Assembly: GCA_963920705.1 (NCBI GenBank) | Contig: OY987226.1 | Location: 30,670,424-30,734,423, forward strand | Reading direction: 5' to 3' | Origin: Odiellus spinosus | Lineage: Eukaryota; Arthropoda; Arachnida; Opiliones; Phalangiidae | DNA: 64,000 bases | Shown here: positions 15,001 to 36,345 of the stretch, one piece after another | How the letters are laid out: each line of letters starts with the position of its first letter | Numbering within the stretch: position 1 is the stretch's first letter | The notes under the pieces: generated by a model | Databases searched by the model: none | Told to the model about the DNA's origin: nothing | The model's input: the letters and a program-made list of their open reading frames with translations, nothing else | Made by a program: the position numbers and the translations under genes

Positions 15001-16905
15001 TAAGCTCAGGGAAATATGTTAAACTGAAATATCAGGAAATGAAGAAATTAAGTTTGATAAGGTTAGGAAATCTTATATTAGTAAGGTCGGGGAATTGAGA
15101 AATTTGGCTTAAGGAGCTCCGGGAATTAAGAAATTGTGTGTAATAAGGTCAGAGGATAATGAAATTGGGTTTAATAATGTCAGGGAATAGTCAAATTTGG
15201 TTTAAGAAGTTCAGGGAATTCAGAAATTGGGTGTAATAAGGTCAGGGAATAATGAAATTTTGTTTAATAGTGTCGGAATAATGAAATTGGGTTTAAGAAG
15301 GTGAGAGAATTAAGGAATTGGATGTAATAAGGTCTGGGAATAATGAAATTGGGTTTAATAATGTCAAGGAATAATGAAATTTGGTTTAAGAAGGTCAGGG
15401 AATTCAGAAATTGGGTGTAATAAGGTCAGGGAATAATGAAATTGGGTTTAATAGTGTCAGGGAATAATGAAATTGGGTTTAAGAAGTTGAGAGAATTAAG
15501 GAATTGGATGTAATAAGGTCTGGGAATAATGAAATTGGGTTTAAGAAGGTCAGGGGATAATGAAATTGGGTTTAATAATGTCAGGGAATAATGAAATTGG
15601 GTTTAAGAAGGTGAGATAATTAAGAAATTGGGTGTAATAAGGTCAGGGAATAATGAAATTGGGTTTAATATTGTCAGGGAATAATTAAATTGGGTTAAGA
15701 AGGTGAGGAAATTAATAAATTGGGTGTAATAAGGTCAGGAAATAATGAAAAAGGTTTTAATAATGTCAGGGAATAATGAAATTGGGTTTATTTATGTCAG
15801 GGAATAATGAAATTGGGTTTAAGAAGGTGAGAGAATTAAGGAATTGGATGTAATAAGGTCTGGGAATAATAAAATTGGGTTTAATAATGTCAGGGAATAA
15901 TGAAATTTGGTTTAAGAAGGTCAGGGAATTCAGAAATTGGGTGTAATAAGGTCAGGGAATAATGAAATTGGGTTTAATAGTGTCAGGGAATAATGAAATT
16001 GGGTTTAAGGTGAGGGAATTAAGAAATTGGGTGTAATAAGGTCAGGGAATAATGAAATTGGGTTTAAGAAGGTCAGGGGATAATGAAATTGGGTTTAATA
16101 ATGTCAGGGAATAATGAAATTGGGTTTAAGAAGGTGAGATAATTAAGAAATTGGGTGTAATAAGGTCAGGGAATAATGAAATTGGGTTTAATGTTGTCAG
16201 GGAATAATTAAATTGGGTTTAAGAAGGTGAGGAAATTAATAAATTGGGTGTAATAAGGTCAGGAAATAATAAAAAAGGTTTTAATAATGTCAGGGAATAA
16301 TGAAATTGGTTTAAGAAGGTGAGGGAATTAAGAAATTGGGTGTAATAAGGTCAGGGAATAATGAAATTGGGTTTAATTTTGTCAGGGAATAATGAAATTG
16401 GCTTTAAGAAGGTGAGGAAATTAATAAATTGGGTGTAATAAGGTCAGGAAATAATGAAATTGGTTTTAATAATATCAGGGAATAATGAAATTGGTTTAAG
16501 AAGGTGAGGGAATTAAGAAATTGGGTGTAATAAGGTCAGGGGATAACGAAATTGGGTTTAATAATGTCAGGGAATAATGAAATAGGGTTTAATATTGTCA
16601 GGGAATAATGAAATTGGGTTTAAGAAGGTGAGGGAATTAAGAAATTGGGTGTAACAAGGTCAGGGGATAACGAAATTGGGTTTAATAATATCAGGGAATA
16701 ATGAAATTGGGTTTAAGAAGGTCAGGGAATTAAGAAATTGGGTGTAATAAGGTCAGGGAATAATGAAATTAGGTTTAATAAGAGAGGGAATAATGAAATT
16801 GGGTTTAATATTGTCAGGGAATAATTAAATTGGGTTGAAGAAGGTGAGGGAATTAAGAAATTGGGTGTAATAAGGTCAAGGGATAATGAAATTGGGTTTA
16901 ATAAT
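15001..16905 (+). repeat. AT-rich satellite, ~30-bp subunits in higher-order arrays
   Basis: About sixty subunits of roughly 30-32 bp, all variants of GTCAGGGAATAATGAAATTG followed by GGTTTAATAAT, GGTTTAAGAAG or GGTGTAATAAG. Three subunit types cycle in a recurring order, giving a higher-order period of about 90-125 bp. Some larger blocks are copied almost exactly. There is no coding capacity. Confidence 0.88.
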
Positions 16906-19381: not shown

Positions 19382-20329
19382 TGATTGTTTTTTTTTTTTT
19401 TTTTTGCGCCCGTTATTGTCATTTTTTTTCGCGCCGTTGTTTAGTTGCCATTAGGGCCATTGCCGATTAGTTTTTGCGCTCGTTGGTTTCGTTTTTTCGC
19501 GCCGCCGTCTTTCATTTTTTTTCGGTCGGGGTGTGTGCAGCCCCATCTGCTGTGAACATTAATTTCCAGGGGACACTACTAATTTCTGTGCCTAATTTCA
19601 GCCCCATGTGTTTGGACAGCTATTGAACTATCATCCCAGGAAGTGTTACATTTACGTTTTTTACCGGTGCGTTAAGGTGTTTGGTTCAACTGTTTGTTGT
19701 GGAGTTTTTTTGGGGTTCTTTGTATTTGATAAGTGCGAACCTCCATCAACGCTCGCGGAGGCCTAAATGCGCTCATTGCATTGATTCCCTTCAATTCTCC
19801 CTTCAGAGGAACAAGTTCCTCTTTTTGCCGACATAATTCTGGACATTATCTTCAAGTGGTATATCTTTCTACAACGGCTATTAGTGTTGTGCTTTATGGA
19901 AACATCTTCCTGGAACTCATCAATTTATTGTACCTGTTGGTGAATAATTGGAAGAATTTGAGTATCATATCCATGTTATGTTGCTTGGATTATAGTTTAT
20001 CTAACTTACCCAACAAACATTTTTTCTGACTAATTAGACCATGGGGAGTTAAAAAAAAAAAATAGTTAAAAAAATATTGTTCCGCCGCAAATATTTTTAA
20101 TTTTTTTTAATAATCCTACCCTAATCCTACTACTAATCAACGCGTCGTACATACTCGTTCATCACCCTTGGAGGAAGTATGTTAGATGGAGGCGCCGACT
20201 GCCTATAAACTTCGTTACTCGTAGCGGCCTCTCCTACGGCGACGCGCATACCGTTACTAAGGTAACGCGCATATTTAAGGGGGGCGTCACGACTCACTTG
20301 GCTCGGGAAATCCATTTTACCTTTCAAAC
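19382..20329. other. LTR-element leader or remnant, no clear gene
   Basis: Sequence downstream of the LTR, with T-rich runs and GCGCCGTTG-like repeats (19400-19520). A 98-codon frame at 19733-20029 has no Gag-like features I can name. Around 20169-20204 lies a segment (TTAGATGGAGGCGCCGACTG) whose inverse occurs at 25401-25436 on the far side of the Mag-like element, so this is the broken left half of the Mag insertion target. CTTTCAAAC ends at the TSD. Confidence 0.4.
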
Positions 20330-20581
20330 TGTTGTGTTTGTGGGAGTAATGTAACCAGTAGATAATACGTTTAATTTACTATATTTATTAATAACTTAGT
20401 TACATATCTTTTTCTACAAGAGACGTTCATTTTACGCGACTTGTCTGTTTCCTCTCTCTCTCTCTTTTTTGGGTCAATTCCCACTTTTTAGTTTTGGTTT
20501 TGAACTCACTTTCTCCAGAGAGTAGCGACACCTGATGCTTACAGGGCGTAACTTTAGCGCGCGATATTCGAATCTATTACA
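20330..20581 (-). repeat. 3' LTR of the Mag-like element
   Basis: On the coding (minus) strand it opens TGTAATAGATTCGAATATCG and closes CACAAACACAACA. It is preceded on that strand by a purine tract, GCAGAGAGAGTAT (plus-strand 20582-20595), the likely polypurine tract for second-strand priming. A CT-repeat lies at 20451-20467. Confidence 0.92.
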
Positions 20582-20682
20582 ATACTCTCTCTGCAAAAGT
20601 AAATTTTAACTCTTTTAAAATTTGTACTAAATGTGCGAGGTAAAAGCATATAGAGAGTAAACTAGTCCTTGAGAGTCTATTA

Positions 20683-22413
20683 TTAAAGATTTAGGCGTTT
20701 AGGTGCTTCTCTGCGTCTAGTAGAACGACGTAATGGATGAGAAGTGCTCGGAGATGTTGGCGTGATTGGATTTTGCGGAGCTGGCGCAGGAGATTGTATT
20801 TCCTCAGCTTGAGGTAGTAAGACGGTTGCAGATCCTTGAGCTTCAGCGGAAATAGGTGCTTCCTCGGAAGTGAGCAAAGAAGGCTGTCCAACATCTGTAT
20901 TAGGTGTGACAAAAGAGGAAGGAGGGTCTGGGAAGTCAGAGTTTGGAGTGTTCGAGGAGTGGTTCTCCAAGCTTGTTTCCTCAAGACATTTTTCGGTTTT
21001 GTTTGGTGTTGTAGTGGTATGATCTTCTCTCATTTGATTCGCATGGCGGCGAACTCGACCGTCCTTAGTTTGAATTTCAAAAACCATTTTTCCTAGTAAT
21101 TGAGTAACCCTTCCTTTAATCCATTGTGGTCCTCGTGAATAGTTCTTTAGAAAGACACTGTCGTTTAGGTGGAATGTCTCCTTCCTTGAGAGAGATATTT
21201 CTTGCGGATGCTGGTTAGTGTTATGGCAAGGGTTGAAGATATCCAAGGAAGTGTACATTTTCCTACCCAACATTAGCTCGGCTGGGGACTGCCCATTTAC
21301 TGAAGGTGTGCGTCTGTAGTTAAAGAGAAATTTGGCAATTCGTGCTTCGAGACTTCCTTCATGGTATTTTTGCAAACCCCTGTCAACTTCGTCTGTGAGG
21401 TCGGAAGTTGTACCATCCAATTTTTTCAAAGTAGACTTAGTTGTTCGTACTGCGCGTTCGGCTCTCCCATTTGATTCGGGATGATAAGGAGGTGAGTGGA
21501 TTAATTCGGTGCCATTTATTTCGAGAAATGTGAGAAAATCTTGACTAGAAAAACACGTAGCACTGTCGGAAACTAAAGTTTTTATTATACCATAGCGAGC
21601 CATATGATCTCTGAGGTGCGTTATCACTGCAGATGTTGATGTAGTGTTAGTTATTCCTACTTCAATACATTTTGATGCGGAGTCAACCATGATAAGCAAA
21701 TACTTGCCCTCAACTGGTCCTGCAAAGTCAATATGCACCCTTGACCATGGTACGGTTGCTGGAGGCCAAGGCGTGTACTGTCGTGGAGGTTTTGGTGCAT
21801 GAATTTGGCAAGCATGACAAGCTTTTACCAGTGTCTCAATGTCCGAGTCCAGGTATGGCCACCAAACTTTCGTGCGAGCTAGTTGTTTCATGTGAACCAT
21901 GCCCTGGTGTGAACTATGTAAGTCTTGGAGAATTTGTGGTCGGAGAGATAACGGAACAACTACCCGATTGCTGACTAGAAGAATTCCTTTGAGGATTGAA
22001 AGGTCATCTCGTTTCCTATAGTACGCTCGTAATTCGTCTGGAATTTTGTTTGGCCAAGACTTCATGCAATAAGATATCACTCTTTGGATGTTCGCATCTT
22101 TCGCCGTTTCGGCAGCCATGGTGGACATGTTAATTGGTCCTTTATTTATTTGATCTATCATGTAGACATATTCATTGGGTAAGCGGCTTTCGTGATCAAC
22201 GTGAGGTAAGGGTAACCTGCTTAAAGCATCAGCATTGGCGTTATGGATGCCCTTTTTGTAGATGATTTTGTATTGATAAGAAGCCAGCATGAGTGCCCAT
22301 CTTTGTAGACGTGCAGCGGCTGTGGCTGGGACAGGCCTGGTTTCGGAGAAGATGGCTGCGAGAGGTTGATGATCTGTAAACCAAAGTGAAAGATCGTCCG
22401 AGGATGTAGTCAC
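20683..22413 (-). CDS. pol: Gag-Pol, second frame: end of RNase H and integrase
   Basis: The frame picks up with TDHQPLAAIF, typical of the RNase H to linker region, and runs through the integrase. The zinc-binding part shows LHSSHQGM and CHAC. The DDE core shows HIDFAGPV, VSDSATCF and PESNGRAERAV, supplying the two Asp and the Glu. The tail is Pro/Ser/Thr-rich and ends APKRLNL. The ATG-less overlap with the first frame (22241-22413) is the frameshift zone, not a genuine second start. It converts the cDNA into an integrated copy. Apart from the one-base break it looks intact. Confidence 0.92.
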   Translation of the reverse strand: MTTSSDDLSLWFTDHQPLAAIFSETRPVPATAAARLQRWALMLASYQYKIIYKKGIHNANADALSRLPLPHVDHESRLPNEYVYMIDQINKGPINMSTMAAETAKDANIQRVISYCMKSWPNKIPDELRAYYRKRDDLSILKGILLVSNRVVVPLSLRPQILQDLHSSHQGMVHMKQLARTKVWWPYLDSDIETLVKACHACQIHAPKPPRQYTPWPPATVPWSRVHIDFAGPVEGKYLLIMVDSASKCIEVGITNTTSTSAVITHLRDHMARYGIIKTLVSDSATCFSSQDFLTFLEINGTELIHSPPYHPESNGRAERAVRTTKSTLKKLDGTTSDLTDEVDRGLQKYHEGSLEARIAKFLFNYRRTPSVNGQSPAELMLGRKMYTSLDIFNPCHNTNQHPQEISLSRKETFHLNDSVFLKNYSRGPQWIKGRVTQLLGKMVFEIQTKDGRVRRHANQMREDHTTTTPNKTEKCLEETSLENHSSNTPNSDFPDPPSSFVTPNTDVGQPSLLTSEEAPISAEAQGSATVLLPQAEEIQSPAPAPQNPITPTSPSTSHPLRRSTRRREAPKRLNL

Positions 22414-24838
22414 GATTTTTGCTTATGCCAAAGACTATTGCTAGCGCTTCTTTCTCGATTTGAGGATAATTTCTTTCTGTCGTGGTTAATGACCGAGAAG
22501 CGTAAGCAATTGGCTTTTCATGGCCATCAATCGAGTGTGAGAGAACGCTGCCGATACCCACTGGCGAAGCGTCGCAAGAGAGGTAGAGTGGTAGTGACGG
22601 GTCGTAATGTACAAGAAGTTTGTGGGATGTTAAGCAAGTTTTAGCTTCAGTGAATGCCGTTTGTTGCGTTTTTCCCCAATGCCAAGGTGATCCTTTGGTT
22701 AAAAGGTTGTAAAGAGGAGCGAGGCGTGTAGCGTTATTGGGTATAAATTTTGTGTAATAATTTACGAGACCAATAAAAGCTCGTAGTTCTTCAACATTCT
22801 TAGGTGCTGGAGCGTTTTTTACAGCTAGGAGTTTTCCTTCTTGAGGGTGTACGCCTTTCGCGTCCAAAACGTAGCCAAGAAAATCGAGAGAGGTTTGAAG
22901 AAATGTGCATTTGTGTTTGTTGAGTTTTAATCCTGCTTCTTCCAAGATTGAGAAAACTCTGTCTAGTTGTTCTAGGTGGATTGGTATAGTTTCGGCACCT
23001 AGTAGAATATCGTCCAAGAATGGAGATATTTTGTCTTCATTGCGAAAAAGACTTTCCATATATTTTTGGAAAACAGCCGTTGCCGAGGAGACTCCGTATG
23101 GAAGGCGGTTATATTTGTAGAGACCCATCACTGTGTTTACTACAACTAACTCCTTAGATTGTTCGTCAAGTTCTAACTGACTATAAGCCTCTCGTAAGTC
23201 TAACCGTGAGAATATCTTGCATCCCGTCATTTTGGAGAAAATATCATTGGCTCGAGGTAGAGGATATTTATCCGCGTCGATGGCAGTGTTTGCTGTTAGT
23301 TTGTAATCACCGCAAAGTCTAACTGAACCGTCCGGCTTCATTACTGGGACAACTGGCGCGGCATAATCTGCGAAGGGTATTGAAGTGATAATTCCAGCTT
23401 TTTCCAGTCTGTCGATTTCGTTCTCGACCTTTTCTTTGATGGCGTATGGTAACGACCTCTGCTTGAAGAAGCGAAGTACTGCGTCAGGCTTCTTGTGTAA
23501 ATGTACCTTGACACCTTTCAAAAGGCCAAGGCCGGGAGCGAAAATATCTTGGTGTTTCTCCAAAATTGAATTTAGTGTTAGTTCTTGAGTTTCGGTGTGG
23601 TGTGATAAGCTGTCCAAAACTTGTAGCGTTGAGAAAATCCACTTTCGGCCACAGAGACTAGGTCCATCCCCTTTTGCGACAGCTAAGGGTAAGTAAGCCG
23701 TCTTGCCGTCGTAGTCTATGTTAACCCGTGAGATACCTAACATGTCAAGTTTGTGTTTCGTAAAGGCTCGGAGGTTGCGTGTGAAAGGTTGTAGTGGTTC
23801 TGTGTCTGGAATCTTTCTGAAAGTGTTTTCCGAAACTATGGAATACCCAGAACCAAGGTCAATCTCGAAGCGAAGTTCCTTTTGATTTACGTGACATGTC
23901 ATATAACACGGTTCGGGAACGGCCATAATGTCGTCATGTTCTGTTGATGAAGTTCCATCATCGATGTGATTGAAACCTGTACCTTGTTCGTCATAGAGTT
24001 GATACTCCGGCTCAGCAATGTGGTGAGCTTTCGGTCGTGACGATGTAGCGCTAGATAAACAAACTCTAGAGAGATGTCCAATTTTTTTACATGTTGAGCA
24101 TTTAGCGTTTTTGTAAGAACAATCTTTAGTGCTATGATCTTTGGTTCCACAACGAAAACAACGTCCGTTGTGTCGAGTTGGTTTATCAAAATCCTTTGAT
24201 GCTGACGGAGGATGTTGAGTTTTTCCTTTTCCTCCGAATGAGCGAGAGCCGGTTTTCTTCGTGGACCCAGTGTGGTGTATTTGTTGCGTGGTTTCTGAGT
24301 TGAAGTGTTTCATGTCCGACGTGTCTTTAGCGGCTATTTCAATGTTTTCTGCGAGCTTGATAGCTTGATTGAGCGTGAGGCTATCTTCTTCCAAGAGGCG
24401 ATTTTGCATTTGCTCATTTTGGATACCGCAGACGAAACGGTCTCTGATCATAAGATCGAGTGTGGTTTGGAAGTTGCAGTGTTCTGATAAACGCTTGAGT
24501 TCCGCTACAAAGTCTCTAACCTTCTCGTTTGGTTTGCGGTTACGACTGTAAAACTTGAATCTTTGTGTGATTTCTCTCGGTTTGGGGTCGTAATGTGATT
24601 TTAACGCGTCAGTTAGTTCCTGTAACGTTTTAGATGATGGTTTATCAGGAACCATTAAAGCTCTCAGCCGTTTATAAACCTCTGTGCCAACACAGGTTAA
24701 GAGAATCGCTATCTGTTGAGGCTCATCCTTGATCTTATTAGCCGTGAAGTAATGTTCCAACCTTTCATAATACGAAGTGAAATTTTCCTCTTTGGGATTG
24801 AATTGAGTACACTGACCGTATGTAGTGGCGTGAGACAT
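22241..24838 (-). CDS. gag-pol: Gag-Pol, first frame: Gag, zinc knuckles, protease, RT, RNase H
   Basis: The likely start is MSHATTYGQ at 24838; the frame is open a further 20 codons upstream. The Gag matrix/capsid part is followed by two CCHC knuckles, CFRCGTKDHSTKDC and CSTCKKIGHLSRVC. The protease region reads FEIDLGSGYS, with Leu where the usual Asp-Thr-Gly triad has Thr. RT motifs include KPDGSVRLCGDY, FSRLDLREAYSQLEL and the catalytic FLDD. RNase H shows LSCDASPVGIG. After about SFTLV the frame drifts into nonsense until a stop at 22241, while the next frame takes over. The break is one surplus base in the TAAACC run at about 22377-22382 (plus strand). Confidence 0.92.
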   Translation of the reverse strand: MSHATTYGQCTQFNPKEENFTSYYERLEHYFTANKIKDEPQQIAILLTCVGTEVYKRLRALMVPDKPSSKTLQELTDALKSHYDPKPREITQRFKFYSRNRKPNEKVRDFVAELKRLSEHCNFQTTLDLMIRDRFVCGIQNEQMQNRLLEEDSLTLNQAIKLAENIEIAAKDTSDMKHFNSETTQQIHHTGSTKKTGSRSFGGKGKTQHPPSASKDFDKPTRHNGRCFRCGTKDHSTKDCSYKNAKCSTCKKIGHLSRVCLSSATSSRPKAHHIAEPEYQLYDEQGTGFNHIDDGTSSTEHDDIMAVPEPCYMTCHVNQKELRFEIDLGSGYSIVSENTFRKIPDTEPLQPFTRNLRAFTKHKLDMLGISRVNIDYDGKTAYLPLAVAKGDGPSLCGRKWIFSTLQVLDSLSHHTETQELTLNSILEKHQDIFAPGLGLLKGVKVHLHKKPDAVLRFFKQRSLPYAIKEKVENEIDRLEKAGIITSIPFADYAAPVVPVMKPDGSVRLCGDYKLTANTAIDADKYPLPRANDIFSKMTGCKIFSRLDLREAYSQLELDEQSKELVVVNTVMGLYKYNRLPYGVSSATAVFQKYMESLFRNEDKISPFLDDILLGAETIPIHLEQLDRVFSILEEAGLKLNKHKCTFLQTSLDFLGYVLDAKGVHPQEGKLLAVKNAPAPKNVEELRAFIGLVNYYTKFIPNNATRLAPLYNLLTKGSPWHWGKTQQTAFTEAKTCLTSHKLLVHYDPSLPLYLSCDASPVGIGSVLSHSIDGHEKPIAYASRSLTTTERNYPQIEKEALAIVFGISKNRDYILGRSFTLVYRSSTSRSHLLRNQACPSHSRCTSTKMGTHAGFLSIQNHLQKGHP

Positions 24839-24983
24839 CGTAAAGCTTCGGAGGCAGGCGGAGCGTGGCTTGAATAAGGCTTGAAAGGCGTAGAGCAAAG
24901 CTTGAAGCAGATAGCGGAAAGCTGAAAATCGGGTTAGAGAGGGGAAACTTGCGTCCTTGTAGATCCCATCTCCGTCGCCATTC

Positions 24984-25235
24984 TGTTGTGTTTGTGGGAG
25001 TAATGTAACCAGTAGATAATACGTTTAATTTACTATATTTATTAATAACTTAGTTACATATCTTTTTCTACAACAGACGTTCATTTTACGCGACTTGTCT
25101 GTTTCCTCTCTCTCTCTCTTTTTTGGGTCAATTCCCACTTTTTAGTTTTGGTTTTGAACTCACTTTCTTCAGAGAGTAGCGACACCTGATGCTTACAGGG
25201 CGTAACTTTAGCGCGCGATATTCGAATCTATTACA
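24984..25235 (-). repeat. 5' LTR of the Mag-like element, followed by the primer-binding site
   Basis: It differs from the 3' LTR at two sites (CAACAGACG versus CAAGAGACG, and TTCTTCAGAG versus TTCTCCAGAG). On the minus strand the LTR is followed after two or three bases by TGGCGACGGAGATGGG (24966-24981), the expected place and TGG start of a tRNA primer-binding site; I do not assign the tRNA. Confidence 0.9.
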
Positions 25236-25394: not shown

Positions 25395-25653
25395 ACGAAC
25401 AGTCGGCGCCTCCATCTAACATACTTCCTCCAAGATCACCCGAAGCAGATTACCACCGGGCTAGTATAGCCCTGTCTATTTATACAGGTTAAAACAGAGA
25501 CATCAGTTCAGTTCTATAACAAAACAGTGGCGCCCTCCATAGGTTTCCTCAAGGGTTCAAATTATGATAAAGTCCCATTTAACAGCATGCCGTTCATGAA
25601 CCTAGGTAAGCTTTTGGTCTTTCGTTAAAGATAAAAAAAGGGTCCCCATTACA
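25395..25653 (-). repeat. LTR fragment in reverse orientation (TGTAATGGGGACCC family)
   Basis: Read on the minus strand from 25653 it begins TGTAATGGGGACCC and shares about 130 bp with the LTR at 30014 (AAAGCTTACCTAGGTTCATGA, CCCTTGAGGAAACCT). Further on is TGTATAAATAGACAGG, a plausible TATA box (about 25467-25483). It ends abruptly against integrase sequence at 25654, so a related element or solo LTR inserted, or recombined, in the opposite orientation. Confidence 0.6.
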
Positions 25654-26460
25654 AGGTCATAGAGGTAGAACCTCTAGCTCTGCCAAAATTAGGGCTCGTT
25701 ATTATCATCCTCAATTGTACATCCTGGTAAAGAAATATGTTAAGGAATGCGAAGTTTGTCCACGATGCAAGAGCAGAAATACAAAGCGTCCAGGTCTTAT
25801 GATCCCCTCGTATAAAATACACCCAGGATATTTAGTGGAAATAGATATTACGGGTCCATTACCCTGTACTAAAAATCAGAATCGATTCCTGGTAGTAATG
25901 GTCGATTATTTTACGAAATATGTTGAAGTTTTTCCCGTCAGAAGCATTACAGCTCCAATATTGTGAAAAGTGTTGCTCCAATATATTTCTAGGCATGGTA
26001 CTATGGCTGCCATTTTATCAGACAATGGGACCCAATTTATATCTAACCTTTGGAAACAATTATGTCATAAGTTGAAGATTAAAGTATAATTTACTTCTCC
26101 TTATCATCCCCAGGCCAATATGACTGCACGAGTAAATAGAGTTATGGGTGAAATCATGAGTATATATACAGGAAATGTACATATAATATGGGATGAACAT
26201 TTACCATTGATTCAGTTAGCTATTAATAGTACAGTACACGCATCTACTGGTTATTCCCCTTTTTATCTCCACCAAGGTTATGAACCCACGTTACCCTGGG
26301 ATGAAAGAAGTTTTGAGTCCCAATTAATGTAGAAACTGTTTTAGAGTATGGAAAAGGACCTATATATGACTGGCAAATAGCTATAGATTTCGCACAGGAA
26401 ATAAATAAACTAGCTAGCATGAAACAGAAGTATTTTTATGATAGAAACTATACCAGCGGA

Positions 26461-27210
26461 CAGGGTTGGCAAAAACAGAGTTTTTTTTTAAAAAAACAAA
26501 AATCATGTTTTTTTTTGTTTAAAACACGAAAAATTGTTTTAAACTGTTTTTAAATGAGACCAAAAAAAAACACAAAAAAACAGTTTAAAACATGTTTTTA
26601 AACACGTTTAAAACACTATGTACATGTATTTTCATCTATTTAGAAGGCCGCTTAAGGCGCCACTATTAGAAGTAAGGCAACTTTAGTTTTGGTTTTAGAA
26701 TCCATAGACATAACTTTTGGTTTTAGAATCTAGAGAAAGAATACACATTTTGCCTTAAGCGTAATAGAAAAAGGTTCCAAAAGCGCCTGCTGTTTTCAGG
26801 TTTAGTGTATTCCTAAAATAACTAATTAATAACTTAATTTACTGTTACTATGAGTTCGGTCGGTCGGAGAAAAGACCCAGTTTGGGTATATTATAACCAT
26901 GTAGAACCAAATGAAAAATGTAAAAGCTCTAGAGCTAAATGCAAGAAGTGTGGTACAGAGGTAGTCGGGCTAGTTGCTCGAATGAAGTCACATTTAGTTA
27001 AGAGCCTCACAAAGATTAAATGTTCAATAATATGGAAATGAAACTACTTTAAAAAACTTATTTTAAACACAAAAACATTCCTTAAAAAAAACATGTTTTA
27101 AACAATTTGTTTAAAACGTTTTAAACAAACCAAAAAAAAACCTTGATGGTTGTTTAAAACATGTTTAAAACAAATGTTTTAAACATTTTGTTTAAAACTT
27201 GCCAACCCTG
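26461..27210 (+). mobile_element. hAT derivative, TSD CCAGCGGA
   Basis: The ends are CAGGGTTGGCAA and its inverse, TTGCCAACCCTG. The 8-bp duplication CCAGCGGA lies at 26453-26460 and 27211-27218. Subterminal regions are full of GTTTAAAAC-type motifs in both orientations. It interrupts the integrase C-terminal region of the older Gypsy element. At 750 bp it lacks the transposase core. Confidence 0.93.
26850..27041 (+). pseudogene. BED zinc-finger fragment of a hAT transposase
   Basis: A 63-codon frame starting MSSVGRRKDPVWVYY, with CKKCGTEVVG and RMKSHL, matches the N-terminal BED finger of hAT transposases (aromatic pair, CxxC, H). The DDE and dimerisation parts are absent, so it is the relic of an internally deleted element. 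It might still bind element ends. The fourth zinc ligand is not obvious after the His. Confidence 0.75.
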
Positions 27211-27956
27211 CCAGCGGAGAACTTGAAGTGGGTCGGTTAGTATGGAAGTTGGGTCATAGATTGTCAAATGCTGCTGCCAAGTTTTCTGCTAAGTTTGCAC
27301 CTCATTGGGAAGTCCTTTTCGTATTGTTGAAAAGATTTCCGCAGTGAGTTATGTAATTATAGAGATGAGTACTGGAGCCCTTGCTGGCACCTGGCACATG
27401 GCACATTAATCAATTAAAATTATATATGTGTACGGCTTCCCTAGACACACAGGAAGTCTTAGAACCTCAGATTATCCCAACCGTTGTAATAGAACCAGTT
27501 GTAGAAGAACCTCCCGTCGACCCAGATCAAACTTTTTTGATGTTTCCTCCAGCCAGAATTGCTCCCACTGATATCGCCGATGATTCAGAATTATTAGAAG
27601 TTATTGTAGTACAGGATAATACAGTACCGGAATCCGTAGAACAAATAGAATCTTCCTCGTCCCATATTTTAACCCAATAGATACCAGTTTAGATACTTCA
27701 AATATAACCGATTCAGATGAGCCTTTGAATGACAGAAATATAAATGATCAAGTGGGTAGCTCTATAGTTATCGAGGAACCTTCTAGTGGAAGTGAGAATG
27801 AGGAAATTCCTCGTTATTATTTATGGTCAATTGTCAGATTTTCTAATCCCCTTATAGAAGAGATACCGGTTGATTTAAACCCAGTAGTTGATCCACAACC
27901 CCTTGTTGTTAATACTGACCCTGTTGTAGCTACAAGTATGGGAGAAATGGATAATC

Positions 27957-28160
27957 CATTGTTAAAAGCTTTTTCTTACGGTTGGCATAGGGAAGTGGTA
28001 TTCCGTAGATCCCAAGTTTCGCGTCTTGGAGACGTACATTATTATACCCCGGGACCTAATGTTAGAAAATCACGTTCATTTCCTGATATTGAAGAATATC
28101 TCTTATTACATGCAGTTGCACCCCAGATTCTAAATAGGTCTAACTTTTCAATGAAAACTA
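27957..28160 (+). other. MBD/TAM-like domain segment
   Basis: The segment reads as an uninterrupted domain of about 68 residues within a 151-codon open frame (27725-28180), even though neighbouring pol is broken. Conserved positions seen are the GW pair, the basic RREV-like strand, the D-V-x-Y-Y strand, P-G turn, RS and the closing Y-L helix. MBD folds read methylated CpG; TAM versions (BAZ2 family) bind nucleic acid more broadly. Assignment is by eye. Confidence 0.75.
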
Positions 28161-28232
28161 TACCTATTGCTTATCCCTAATATGAATCTGTATGCCATTC
28201 GTGATTTTATTGTTGTCCATATATTTTTATAG

Positions 28233-29731
28233 ATGCATTTATCTAGAGGGTCTTATCGAGGAGGCCTGTCTCCTTCTAGGAGTCGTACAACGTTGCATTC
28301 TAACATTGATATGGAACAAGAGTCATTCGATGCACTTAAGAGAATTCAAATATTAGAAACCAAACTACCAAGTACCCCTTCATCGAGTGAAACCCATTTG
28401 AAGGAAGAATCTTCAGTAGCTCTTAATTCAGCAAAGAGTCTTTCCAGCCAAAACCCATCGAAAGATGAACCTTCATTACCGCTTAATTCAGAAGAAAGTA
28501 GTTCAAGTCAATCTCAACTGACGGAGGACTCTTCATTACCGCTCAATTTGGTAGAAGAAAGCATTTCAAGTCAAACCCAAATGAAGGAAGAATCTTTAGT
28601 AGCGCTTAATTCAACAGAGAATCTTTCAAGTCAAACCCCATTGAAAGATGGACCTTCATTATCGCTCAATTCCGAAGAATAAAGTATTTCTAGTCATCAA
28701 CAGTCGAATGACAATGAAACTTTATTGTCTGTAGGAGTCTGTAAGGAACTTAGTCGCGATTCTGGAAAAGAAGAGGTAAGTTCCATTTGCTCCCAAACCG
28801 TTCTGTCCCCTTCAGATGGAAGTGTTTCACAGGACATTATTGGTTATGCTCACCCTGAGCCTAAAAACGTTTCGCCCACTCATTCTTTATCAGTGCAGGA
28901 TAACCCTATCCTTTATGTGGATATTTAATTTTCGTTAGGACTATTTTCCCATGAAAATAAAGTAACGATACCCTTTCATAAATATGTTGAAACACATCCC
29001 CACTTATTCCCCGGCATCTTTGAAGGGTGTGTTGTTCACGTGGGAGCTAAACCGGACGATTTAACTTCATCTCATCTTCTTCAGTATGGCAAGACCTCGG
29101 GTGTTTATATGGTTGTAGGAATTTCCCCAATGTTCGCTCGAGCCTTTTGTAGTCGGGATATGGGTCCCTTAGTCAGAGAAAGTTTGGGGTAGGCTGGAGT
29201 TCGGGAAATTGGAAATATTGGCCTCGATTATACCCAGACCGTACTAGCCTCATGTTCCAAAATCCAGCAGGAAGTGGCTTTCCGTAAACAACTAGTAATA
29301 GCCGAGGAACGGGGACAACCTGTGTTTGTCCACTGTAGTCAAGCGTTTAATGAGTGTATAACAATCCTTCAACACGAATTGCCTAGTAACCACCCTATTA
29401 TTATTCTTACTTTTTGGGCAATATATTCCATGCCCGTCAATTTTTGAGTTCCTTTTCAAGGGTTTATTTTCCTTTCAGTCCACTGTTAGCTAGGTTTAAC
29501 ACTGTTGCCACCAGAGTAGCCCTACGACAAATCCCCATTAATCGTATCTTGGTAGAATATAATGCCCCGATGATAAAAACCATTGGTCTTCCATTACCTG
29601 AAAATACTCCTAGTACCTTGGGGGTAATTCACCCTTTACTCCACCTTATGGCTGAGATCCGTAAGGAGTCGGTATCCCAATTTGCTTACCATATTCGCGA
29701 TAATACCTCTAGGGTTATTGGAGTTAAATAG
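28233..29731 (+). pseudogene. ORF3 in env position: SR-rich start, peptide repeats, TatD-like nuclease domain
   Basis: The ATG at 28233 directly follows a good splice acceptor (TATTTTTATAG). Residues 1-20 are Ser/Arg/Gly-rich (SPSRSR). 28380-28682 encodes five repeats of about 20 residues with LKEESS-ALNS cores. After stops at 28680 and 28926 the same frame gives a TatD-like fold: VVGISPMFA, REIGNIGLDY, QLVIAEERGQPVFVHC; after a shift near 29410 it continues as PINRILVEYNAP, ENTPSTL and an AEIRKESVSQFAYHIRDNT tail. The Glu of GEIGLDY and the His of V-x-H-C are kept. The GIHPH pair and the Asp of ETDAP are changed. An in-frame stop at 29190 interrupts it. TatD enzymes are metal-dependent nucleases; this copy is decayed. 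Confidence 0.75.
28380..28682 (+). repeat. Five in-frame 60-66 bp repeats in ORF3
   Basis: Units encode variants of SSQTQLKEESSLPLNSEE. Reading frame is kept through all five, and synonymous changes are scattered, which favours a once-translated repeat over a random minisatellite. The composition (Ser/Glu/Leu) suggests a flexible or coiled linker. Confidence 0.7.
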
Positions 29732-30013
29732 ATTTCTTTAATTACATTTTTTGTTGGACATTGTTTAGTCTTTCTCCCATCTTGCGGTTTGCTTCATTTT
29801 TTTTTTACTGCTCACTGTGCGGTTTCTTTTGTTTTGATAATCGGGTTACTTTCGTTCCTACTACCACGCTTTAATTTTTTTTCATGATGTTGTGTTTTCC
29901 TCGATTTTTGTAATTGTGTTTTCTCTCATATTAAACCCCTGATAACCTTCCTTGTTGTTTTTTTTTTTCTTTCCCTTTCCTGTGATCTTCCATTATTTGT
30001 GGCGGGTGGGTAT
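29732..30013 (+). other. Untranslated 3' region of the TatD/MBD Gypsy element with polypurine tract
   Basis: T-rich sequence with no frame. It ends GTGGCGGGTGGGTAT immediately before the LTR, a plausible, slightly degenerate polypurine tract. Confidence 0.5.
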
Positions 30014-30389
30014 TGTAATGGGGACCCTTTTTATAACCTTTATAATGAAAGATCCAAAGCTTACTTAGGTTCATGACCTGCATGCTATGAAATGGGGTTC
30101 ATTCATGGTATCAACCCTTGAGGAAACCTCCTAATGAGGGCGTTGCCGAGGGATCACATGGCCTTAATAGATATCATGTGACACCCAATGGAAGCCTCTA
30201 TATACTACAGGGATGAACCTTCATGAGGGGGGATTCTAGCGGACGACCCAGAGAAGAACTCAGGATCTCTTGTTGACCATTATATTAAATACTTTAACTT
30301 TGATTTGTAACCCATCGTAATTACTTTATAGATTATTAAACCAGTTTATAATAATTAAACCAGTTATAATATATTATTGTGAAACCGCA

Positions 30390-31687
30390 CTTATAAGTGT
30401 CTATAAAAAGATCATTGAATATCTGGATACGAGTAATTACGCGCTTGGAGTGTTTTTAGATCTCCGGAAAGCCTTCGATATGGTGCACCACGAGCGATTG
30501 TTAGACAAATTGGAGAGGCTAGGTATTAGAGGTAGCGGCTATAATTGGTTGAGATCCTTCTTAAAACTTCGCTATACGCAAACAAAACTGAACAACGTCA
30601 TATCCGGACAACAAATAGTTATTAAAGGTGTCCCGCAGGGATCGGTACTATCACCTTTATTATTTAATCTATATGTTAATGATATCACGTATATATCTGA
30701 AAGCAATATTTTCACATTATACGCTGATGATACCCTAATCCTGGAGGGAGGCCCAGACCTGGAAAAGATTATAGATAGAATTAATCTTTATATGGATAAA
30801 ATTAAAACCTGGCTTGAGGATAATTTCTTAAGGTTGAACGAAGACAAAACCGTGTATATGATTTTCAATAACGTAAATACAACACGTTGCTGTCAGAATT
30901 CTGTTAAATTTGGAAACACTATCCTCAAAGAAGTTAAACTTTTTAAATATCTTGGCCTATGGTTTGACCCACATTTAAAATGGAATCATCACGTTGATGA
31001 GGTTTCTAAAAAAATAACGTATAGCGCTTATTTAATTTATAGTAACCGAATGATATTAAATCAGAGATTAAAACGGCTCCTATACTATGCCCTTATGCAC
31101 TCCCACTTAAGTTATTGCCTGACAATTTGGGGAAATACATCTAAGGGCAATTTAAACCGTCTCCTTGTAATCCAAAAAAGGACTTTAAGAACGATGGTGA
31201 ATGAAAAATTTCTGGCACATACATACCCGATCTTCCTGGGCCTTAAAATTCTACCAATTCACCAACTTTGCGATTTTTTCGCGCTTATTTTTATCTTTAA
31301 GTCTTTGGCTTCTCAGATGTATAATCCCTTCGAATATAGTAGACTCTCAATATATTTCACCCGTAAAAAGCATATCCTCCACGTTCCTTTTGCCCGGACC
31401 TCTTTAAAACTAAAATCAATTTTTTGCTATGGTGTCAATTTATATAATGAACTTAATCCACCAATATCAATAAATTTAGAACGCTTTAAGGTTATAGTCC
31501 GAAATTTCCTTGTAATTAAGAATTTGTTCTAGTATTTAATTTCTAATGTTTTTTGGATTTTATTTTATTTTATATTTAATACAACTAATTTAGAAACAGA
31601 AGATTTGTGGCATAAAAGTCGTTATCGACTTAGCCATGTTCCGCGAAATTTACCTGTATAATATAATGAAAATAAATTATTATTATA
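30390..31687 (+). mobile_element. 5'-truncated non-LTR retrotransposon (LINE) in the LTR
   Basis: It begins inside the RT domain and ends with a short 3' UTR and an AATAAATTATTATTAT tail, typical of target-primed insertion. The precise target duplication is not clear. Confidence 0.8.
30450..31532 (+). CDS. LINE reverse transcriptase, C-terminal half, open frame
   Basis: An uninterrupted 360-codon frame, also open upstream to about 30393 (SVYKKIIEYLDTSNYALG). RT motifs are LDLRKAFDMVHHERL, GVPQGSVLSPLLFNLYVND, the catalytic YADD and a following LNEDKT. The thumb-like region (YLGLWFDPHLKW, HSHLSYCLTIWG) continues to the stop. The Jockey/CR1 group is likely. The endonuclease and ORF1 are lost through 5' truncation. 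No frameshifts are seen, so the insertion is younger than the LTR element it splits. The annotated ATG is internal to the domain. Confidence 0.9.
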   Translation: MFLDLRKAFDMVHHERLLDKLERLGIRGSGYNWLRSFLKLRYTQTKLNNVISGQQIVIKGVPQGSVLSPLLFNLYVNDITYISESNIFTLYADDTLILEGGPDLEKIIDRINLYMDKIKTWLEDNFLRLNEDKTVYMIFNNVNTTRCCQNSVKFGNTILKEVKLFKYLGLWFDPHLKWNHHVDEVSKKITYSAYLIYSNRMILNQRLKRLLYYALMHSHLSYCLTIWGNTSKGNLNRLLVIQKRTLRTMVNEKFLAHTYPIFLGLKILPIHQLCDFFALIFIFKSLASQMYNPFEYSRLSIYFTRKKHILHVPFARTSLKLKSIFCYGVNLYNELNPPISINLERFKVIVRNFLVIKNLF

Positions 31688-34480: not shown

Positions 34481-34624
34481 ATGCCGTTGAAGTACGAGTA
34501 CTGAAAACTGTTCAATGCTTCATAGCCGTAACGAACACAATGGAATGTATATTCTGTACTTTTAACTATACCTTTGGTTGAAAATCCCTTTGAAATGCTT
34601 TTTGATTGTTGACAAGTTTGTTTC

Positions 34625-36345
34625 TGCTTGTACATTGAAACTTCTGGCCCGGCTGAATCTTACTTCTGGCCCCGGGGCTGAAACTTTCTCCTGGCCCCGG
34701 GGCTGAAACTTTCTCCTGGCCAAGGGGCTGGAACTTTCTCCTGGCCCAGGGGGCTGGAACTTTCTCCTGGCCCAGGGGGCTGGAACTTTCTCCTGGCCCA
34801 GGGGGCTGGAACTTTCTCCTGGCCCAGGGGGCTGGAACTTTCTCCTGGCCCAGGGGGCTGAAACTTTCTCCTGGCCCAGGGGGCTGAAACTTTCTCCTGG
34901 CCCAGGGGGCTGAAACTTTCTCCTGGCCCAGGGGGCTGAAACTTTCTCCTGCCCCAGGGGGCTGAAACTTTCTCCTGCCCCAGGGGGCTGAAACTTTCTC
35001 CTGCCCCAGGGGGCTGAAACTTTCTCCTGGTCCAGGGGGCTGAAACTTTCTCCTGGTCCAGGGGGCTGAAACTTTCTCCTGGCCCAGGGGGCTGAAACTT
35101 TCTCCTGGCCCAGGGGGCTGAAACTTTCTCCTGGCCCAGGGGGCTGAAACTTTCTCCTGGCCCAGGGGGCTGAAATTTTCTCCTGGCCCAGGGGGCTGAA
35201 ACTTTCTCCTGGTCCAGGGGGCTGAAACTTTCTCCTGGCCCAGGGGGCTGAAACTTTCTCCTGGCCCAGGGGGCTGAAACTTTCTCCTGGCCCAGGGGGC
35301 TGAAACTTTCTCCTGGCCCAGGGGGCTGAAACTTTCTCCTGGCCCAGGGGGCTGAAACTTTCTCCTGGCCCAGGGGGCTGAAACTTTCTCCTGGCCCAGG
35401 GGGCTGAAACTTTCTCCTGGCCCGAGGGCTGAAACTTTCTCCTGGCCCGAGGGCTGAAACTTTATTCTGGCCCGAGGGCTGAAACTTTATTCTGGCCCGA
35501 GGGCTGAAACTTTATTCTGGCCCGAGGGCTGAAACTTTATTCTGGCCCGAGGGCTGAAACTTTATTCTGGCCCGAGGGCTGAAACTTTATTCTGGCCCGA
35601 GGGCTGAAACTTTATTCTGGCCCGAGGGCTGAAACTTTATTCTGGCCCGAGGGCTGAAACTTTATTCTGGCCCGAGGGCTGAAACTTTATTCTGGCCCGA
35701 GGGCTGAAACTTTATTCTGGCCCGAGGGCTGAAACTTTATTCTGGCCCGAGGGCTGAAACTTTATTCTGGCCCGAGGGCTGAAACTTTATTCTGGCCCGA
35801 GGGCTGAAACTTTATTCTGGCCCGAGGGCTGAAACTTTATTCTGGCCCGAGGGCTGAAACTTTATTCTGGCCCGAGGGCTGAAACTTTATTCTGGCCCGA
35901 GGGCTGAAACTTTATTCTGGCCCGTGGGCTGAAACTTTATTCTGGCCCGAGGGCTGAAACTTTATTCTGGCCCGAGGGCTGAAACTTTATTCTGGCCCGA
36001 GGGCTGAAACTTTATTCTGGCCCGAGGGCTGAAACTTTATTCTGGCCCGAGGGCTGAAACTTTATTCTGGCCCGAGGGCTGAAACTTTATTCTGGCCCGA
36101 CGGCTGAAACTTTATTCTGGCCCAAGGGCTGAAACTTTATTCTGGCCCAAGGGCTGAAACTTTATTCTGACCCAAGGGCTGAAACCTGTTTAGGTCCGGG
36201 GGCTGAAACTTTCCTCTGGCCCCGGGGCTGAAACGTTTTTCTAACCCGGGGGCTGAAACTTTTTTCTCGTCCGGGGGCTGAAACGTTTTTTTCTGAACCG
36301 AGGGCTGAAACCTTTTTCTGGCCCGGGGGCTGAATCTTATTATTA
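34625..36345 (+). repeat. 1.7-kb GC-rich minisatellite with 26-bp and 25-bp unit classes
   Basis: 34650-35415 is made of 26-bp units (GGGGGCTGAAACTTTCTCCT then GGCCCA). From about 35420 to 36130 the unit is 25 bp (GAGGGCTGAAACTTTATTCT then GGCCC), repeated about 28 times with almost no variation. 36130-36345 holds degenerate units. The switch from a variable 26-mer to a homogeneous 25-mer shows a recent expansion of one variant. Confidence 0.92.

Follow-up and report, generated by a model that had tools for sequence, protein, structure and literature searches.

A group of Ty3/Gypsy retrotransposons in the genome of Odiellus spinosus carries a methyl-CpG-binding domain (MBD) of the BAZ2/TAM type at the C-terminal end of its pol frame, after the integrase and an acidic linker, and this domain has the canonical residues that contact methylated CpG (mCpG). 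One decayed member of the group lies on the forward strand at about 25654-30142 of the window, the 64,000-nucleotide stretch analysed here (GenBank assembly GCA_963920705.1, contig OY987226.1, positions 30,670,424 to 30,734,423). In a separate group of Copia elements, an MBD2-like domain follows immediately after the integrase. Our preferred reading, to which we give a probability of about 0.65, is that the MBD would stay joined to the integrase, bind methylated CpG of the target chromatin, and tether the integration complex to it in the manner of the chromovirus chromodomain, with the acidic linker possibly serving as a flexible tether.

In the window copy, the MBD (27953-28126, +) lies in an open frame at 27620-28180 and matches PF01429 with an E-value of 4.3e-7 and 29.9 bits, against a cut-off of 21 bits. 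The first Tyr of its DVYY motif is replaced by His (alignment A1). A TAM-like tail with an NFS motif follows and ends the pol frame (28127-28177, +), in agreement with the likeness to BAZ2 tails described in an earlier note made from this sequence. Upstream, the C-terminal part of the integrase, including GTWHINQLK (27211-27455, +), is read in the open frame 27369-27680 and shares 73-86% DNA identity with the genome copies L015, L019, and L035. Between the two lies the acidic linker (27456-27952, +), which contains the single frameshift that separates the GTWHINQLK frame from the MBD frame, just as the earlier note had it; in L019, L028, and L035 the linker is read in one frame. That note had proposed an integrase extended by a BAZ2/TAM-type MBD, to be checked by a PF01429 search and in intact copies, and had allowed that the segment might be a one-off gene fragment. 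The profile match is significant, the copies with an open pol frame hold integrase, linker, and MBD in one frame (L019, L028, L035), and these relatives rule out the one-off fragment.

A PF01429 search of the window's own assembly, in which the best 150 of 415 candidates were scored, placed all 150 above the cut-off, many of them in stop-free frames of 1000-1700 aa; at least one match, the BAZ2-like L001, is a host gene. When the 186-aa frame of the window copy served as query, 111 matches were retrieved from the assembly, including frames of 1349-1385 aa. In L019, L028, and L035 the integrase zinc finger, core, and SH3-like C-terminus are followed by the MBD, with some of these hits below the cut-off; the MBD of L019 reaches 37.6 bits. 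The copy L028 is the same as L049, in whose 844-aa frame RNase H (PF17917, 9.4e-32) precedes the integrase (PF17921, 3.7e-20; rve, 4.3e-15). A gag-type CCHC knuckle was found upstream in five copies, above the cut-off in L050, L052, and L072 and below it in L060 and L066. Pfam scans of the MBD-bearing Gypsy copies detected no Chromo domain behind the integrase, where the MBD is found instead. Gypsy lineages without an MBD are also present in the genome.

Long terminal repeat (LTR) pairs of 300-568 bp were found in 9 of the 12 copies examined at both ends, six of them identical and the remaining three 99.7, 99.2, and 95.2% identical; no pair was found at the ends of C14, C3a, and C45. All nine LTR-bounded copies are flanked by 4-bp target duplications (TTGT, GAGA, AATT, CCGT, ATGC, AAAT, ATTG, CGAC, and ACCT). 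The copies are therefore integrase-made and partly young insertions rather than gene fragments. One could still suppose, from the broken and frameshifted window copy, that a fragment of a host MBD gene came to lie by chance beside a dead integrase and has no function in the element. We consider this highly improbable, since there are relatives that have a single open frame, identical LTRs, and target duplications, and since the MBD occurs in two superfamilies and, as substitution patterns indicate, is under purifying selection. As separate observations, the C14 and C3 copies (L050 and L052) are a near-identical pair that lacks the 5' LTR and has almost the same inner start point, and two of the nine insertions lie inside tandem arrays (C216 and C136; L056/L057 and L068/L069) with units of about 23 bp and 384 bp, too few for a test.

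In the Copia elements the MBD is MBD2-like and is positioned between integrase and reverse transcriptase. The copy L009 holds integrase, MBD, and RVT_2 in one frame, with rve below the cut-off, and L007 and L010 show parts of this arrangement. For 45 of the 150 MBD matches listed, RVT_2 follows on the same strand after 130-235 bp; within 1.5 kb of any of the 150, no RVT_2 match was seen upstream or on the opposite strand. The remaining 105 without a listed reverse transcriptase comprise Gypsy elements, fragments, perhaps unlisted reverse transcriptases, and at least one host gene (the above-mentioned L001). Conversely, 45 of the 140 RVT_2 rows used have an MBD in front; these rows derive from the best 150 of 649 candidates scored, which gave 160 matches overall, the 10 weakest of those listed being dropped. 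Copia lineages without an MBD are likewise present. A profile of the Copia-type MBDs matches MBD2 with an E-value of 2.7e-18, the best matches being MBD2/MeCP2; it resembles that domain by profile and differs from it in being located inside a pol frame. Since this MBD type differs from that of the Gypsy elements, capture probably happened twice, once per superfamily. The order of pol also differs between the two superfamilies, leaving the integrase as the shared neighbour, which is our main reason for reading the MBD as an integrase accessory.

All 10 Gypsy rows of alignment A2 retain the contact residues R, D, Y, R, and S. For five of these rows an integrase was seen in front (L019, L028, L035, L073, and, weakly, L088), for L018 and L039 it is placed there by DNA similarity, L093 was assigned by MBD type, and L065 and L067 were assigned by MBD type together with their LTRs. 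In alignment A3 the residues are kept in 13 of 15 rows called Copia, of which ten have a Copia context (L005 via L007, L008 via L009, L010, L075, L084-L087, L089, and L090) and five (L074, L077, L079, L081, and L083) were so called by MBD type alone. Four of six further MBD pieces outside the alignments retain all of them. Among MBDs, that of the Gypsy elements is nearest to the BAZ2 TAM domain in sequence, fold, and tree. Nevertheless, it retains the set of D, Y, and S that is missing from BAZ2A, BAZ2B (which has E, A, and Q there), and the host's BAZ2-like exon.

The host genome contains a DNMT1 exon (PDB DNMT1, E 3.4e-27), a DNMT2 match, and SRA-domain matches, one of which crosses stops, probably an intron; the SRA gene may be UHRF1. 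Eight of nine LTRs are depleted in CpG (ratio 0.37-0.73), whereas the ratio for the whole window is 1.00, as would be expected for methylated elements in a sparsely methylated genome. Apparently methylated LTRs and conserved reading residues would also suit an anti-silencing role, in which the MBD acts as a competitor of host MBD2 or BAZ2 proteins at methylated copies of the element itself and adjoins the integrase only incidentally. A decoy could be placed anywhere, and both captures adjoin the integrase despite the differing pol order, so we regard this role as improbable.

Concerning insertion sites, MBD-bearing elements lie in gene-poor DNA, with 0.85 vs 1.16 landmarks per 2 Mb (one-sided p 0.007 vs random positions; 0.03 vs one Gypsy lineage without an MBD; 0.17 vs other rve). 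This set consists of 60 frames of at least 1000 aa without stops, 43 chosen by eye from the MBD profile list and 17 from the window-frame list, with Gypsy and Copia mixed and duplicates kept; 46 of them are on 16 large contigs. The comparison sets numbered 51, 57, and 44 (44, 53, and 32 on large contigs), and in them the lack of an MBD means absence among the MBD matches listed, with all four such places scanned holding none. Gene landmarks were 232 typed rows after weak rows were dropped, and the lengths of four contigs are approximate.

Several observations weigh against methylation-guided integration. BAZ2 TAM domains are described as not methyl-selective, and a contact residue is lost in a few Copia-type MBDs: the Tyr in L075 and the second Arg in L083 and L082 (N in the latter), the second Arg being lost also in L091 (H). 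The MBDs of L035 and L039 show amino-acid changes with zero synonymous change (nonsynonymous divergence, dN, 0.021; synonymous divergence, dS, 0), and the same substitution comparison gave 0.25-0.63 for four unsaturated Copia MBD pairs. The LTR of C3b, the remaining one of the nine, has no CpG depletion (1.02), the flanks of the nine insertions, with CpG ratios of 0.30-1.20, are not clearly depleted, and the DNA around Copia elements in which no MBD was detected is even poorer in genes (0.44 landmarks per 2 Mb; one-sided p 0.85). A gene-density bias that is not specific to MBD carriers, such flanks, and the nearness to BAZ2 TAM would all fit an integrase-bound but methylation-blind module of the BAZ2-TAM kind that raises affinity for target DNA without selecting methylated sites. 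We think this unlikely, as the Gypsy MBDs, unlike the BAZ2 domains, retain the D, Y, and S found in MBDs that read mCpG, and the Copia-type MBDs match MBD2/MeCP2 best. An mCpG-reading MBD that would guide the integrase remains our preferred reading. The wider proposal, that Gypsy as a second LTR superfamily captured its MBD independently (BAZ2/TAM class, with mCpG-reading residues) and that host CpG methylation guides the integration of Gypsy and Copia elements alike, we hold with as much doubt as confidence.

Outside the MBD region, the window copy is 5'-truncated and interrupted. Its integrase zinc finger and part of the catalytic core (25654-26460, +) contain stop codons, match PF17921 at 1.4e-10 (within 25610-25966) and rve weakly, and are 87% identical to L019, whose pol frame is open. 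The core and the C-terminus of the integrase are separated by a nested hAT-type insertion (26461-27210) with a BED zinc-finger frame (zf-BED, 3.6e-4, within 26838-27041). This insertion is flanked by an 8-bp target duplication, CCAGCGGA, at 26453-26460 and 27211-27218, has terminal inverted repeats with the ends CAGGGTTGGCAA/TTGCCAACCCTG, and is missing from the relative L013 in a DNA comparison, where it appears as a gap. The earlier note had placed the element at 25656-28182, but beyond 28182 it continues with a second open reading frame (ORF) and with a partial 3' LTR start (30013-30142, +). The latter is 80% identical to the LTR starts of L054/L058 and begins with TGTAATGGGG, as the LTRs of the genome copies do. 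Abutting the truncated 5' end is an inverted LTR fragment of the same family (25527-25654, -), 77.9% identical over 131 bp to the LTR starts in L054/L055 (inverted pairs I1 and I3). A long inverted repeat, 25527-25654/30013-30142, arises because this inverted piece adjoins the truncated end, and its interpretation as transposon ends was rejected.

The second ORF begins in the window with a low-complexity N-terminus of imperfect 114-nt repeats (28233-28682, +), followed by a TatD-like domain (28929-29728, +) that is interrupted by stops and a frameshift and matches PF01026 at 2.5e-11 (29193-29447) and 4e-6 (29390-29731). In the genome, a TatD match follows on the same strand at 42 of the 56 Gypsy-type MBD places used, and a Gypsy-type MBD precedes 42 of the 79 TatD places used; these places are 56 of the 111 rows of the window-frame search and 79 of the 92 rows of the TatD list. 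The aligned second ORFs span 342-443 aa from stop to stop, and second ORFs match TatD with E-values down to 2.5e-33 (PF01026) and 9.4e-26 (PDB 2gzx). They are thus like TatD/TATDN deoxyribonucleases by fold and profile. In contrast, alignment A4 with TatD structures shows that the E of GEIGLDY, the H before FSG/FTG, and the D of ETDxP, which we take to be TatD metal ligands, are substituted in 7 of 7 second ORFs. The H after PV is retained in 2 of the 7, and no HxH was found among the conserved N-terminal columns of A4. The product looks like a dead nuclease that has been retained, perhaps as a nucleic-acid-binding accessory. The copies C1, C136, and C4 have no TatD ORF, and their LTR follows about 225 bp downstream of pol. 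In the C3b lineage (L072/L073) a 1001-aa second ORF without any Pfam or NCBIfam match lies between pol-MBD and the 3' LTR (L073:685-3687).

Several other features were observed. The MBD element in the window is adjoined by a Gypsy element without an MBD match (20329-25235, -) whose 253-nt terminal copies are 99% alike. A 403-aa RVT_1 frame at 30321-31532 (E 9.6e-27) probably belongs to a non-LTR element. Long tandem arrays occupy 34590-36270 and 15065-16505, with units of 25-26 bp and about 31 bp. Elsewhere in the host genome, a homeobox cluster lies on C4.

With respect to known systems, an arthropod retrotransposon family that captured a functionally active MBD is, by its title, the subject of de Mendoza, Pflueger and Lister 2019 (Genome Res 29:1277; PMC6673714). 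The earlier note's statement that no lineage of this architecture is described thus stands for Gypsy, as far as our literature search shows, and not for arthropod retrotransposons at large. Our literature search turned up no Gypsy element with an MBD, including among works citing the 2019 paper, whose own full text lay outside that search. The 2019 family is reportedly made up of Copia elements of centipede and spider, whose MBD is said to bind methylated CpG and whose insertions are said to be biased. The Copia elements described here most likely belong to this known kind, a host-type MBD within an LTR retrotransposon. The window element differs in being a Gypsy element with a C-terminal MBD of the BAZ2/TAM type and, in many relatives, a TatD second ORF, and a Gypsy lineage that combines such an MBD with a dead TatD looks new. 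Chromoviruses, also Ty3/Gypsy, similarly have a chromatin reader behind the integrase; theirs is a chromodomain at the integrase C-terminus, and here it is an MBD. Among the 149 chromodomain matches listed, one is in a frame of at least 1000 aa and the others in frames of at most 422 aa. Many chromodomain-like matches have recurring identical scores and lie in frames of 371-420 aa, and they apparently belong to a further repeat family. Retroelements with a captured DNA-methylation gene are known as DNMT-bearing retrotransposons (de Mendoza 2018, PMC5890265); those captured methylation writers, whereas the Gypsy and Copia elements here captured readers. Searches of a 5.8-billion-protein set and of viral contigs gave no result, which carries little weight because animal genomes seem scarce there.

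The sequences suggest that DNA methylation may help to steer where these elements land. If the integrases of two superfamilies each acquired a methyl reader, drawn from two MBD classes, this would be a case of convergence rather than an isolated curiosity. The dead TatD-like second ORF is a further, unexplained capture. The genome is a natural experiment, as MBD-bearing and MBD-free lineages of both Gypsy and Copia coexist in a host with DNMT1, and methylation-guided insertion could be tested by comparing the insertion maps of these lineages with the methylome.
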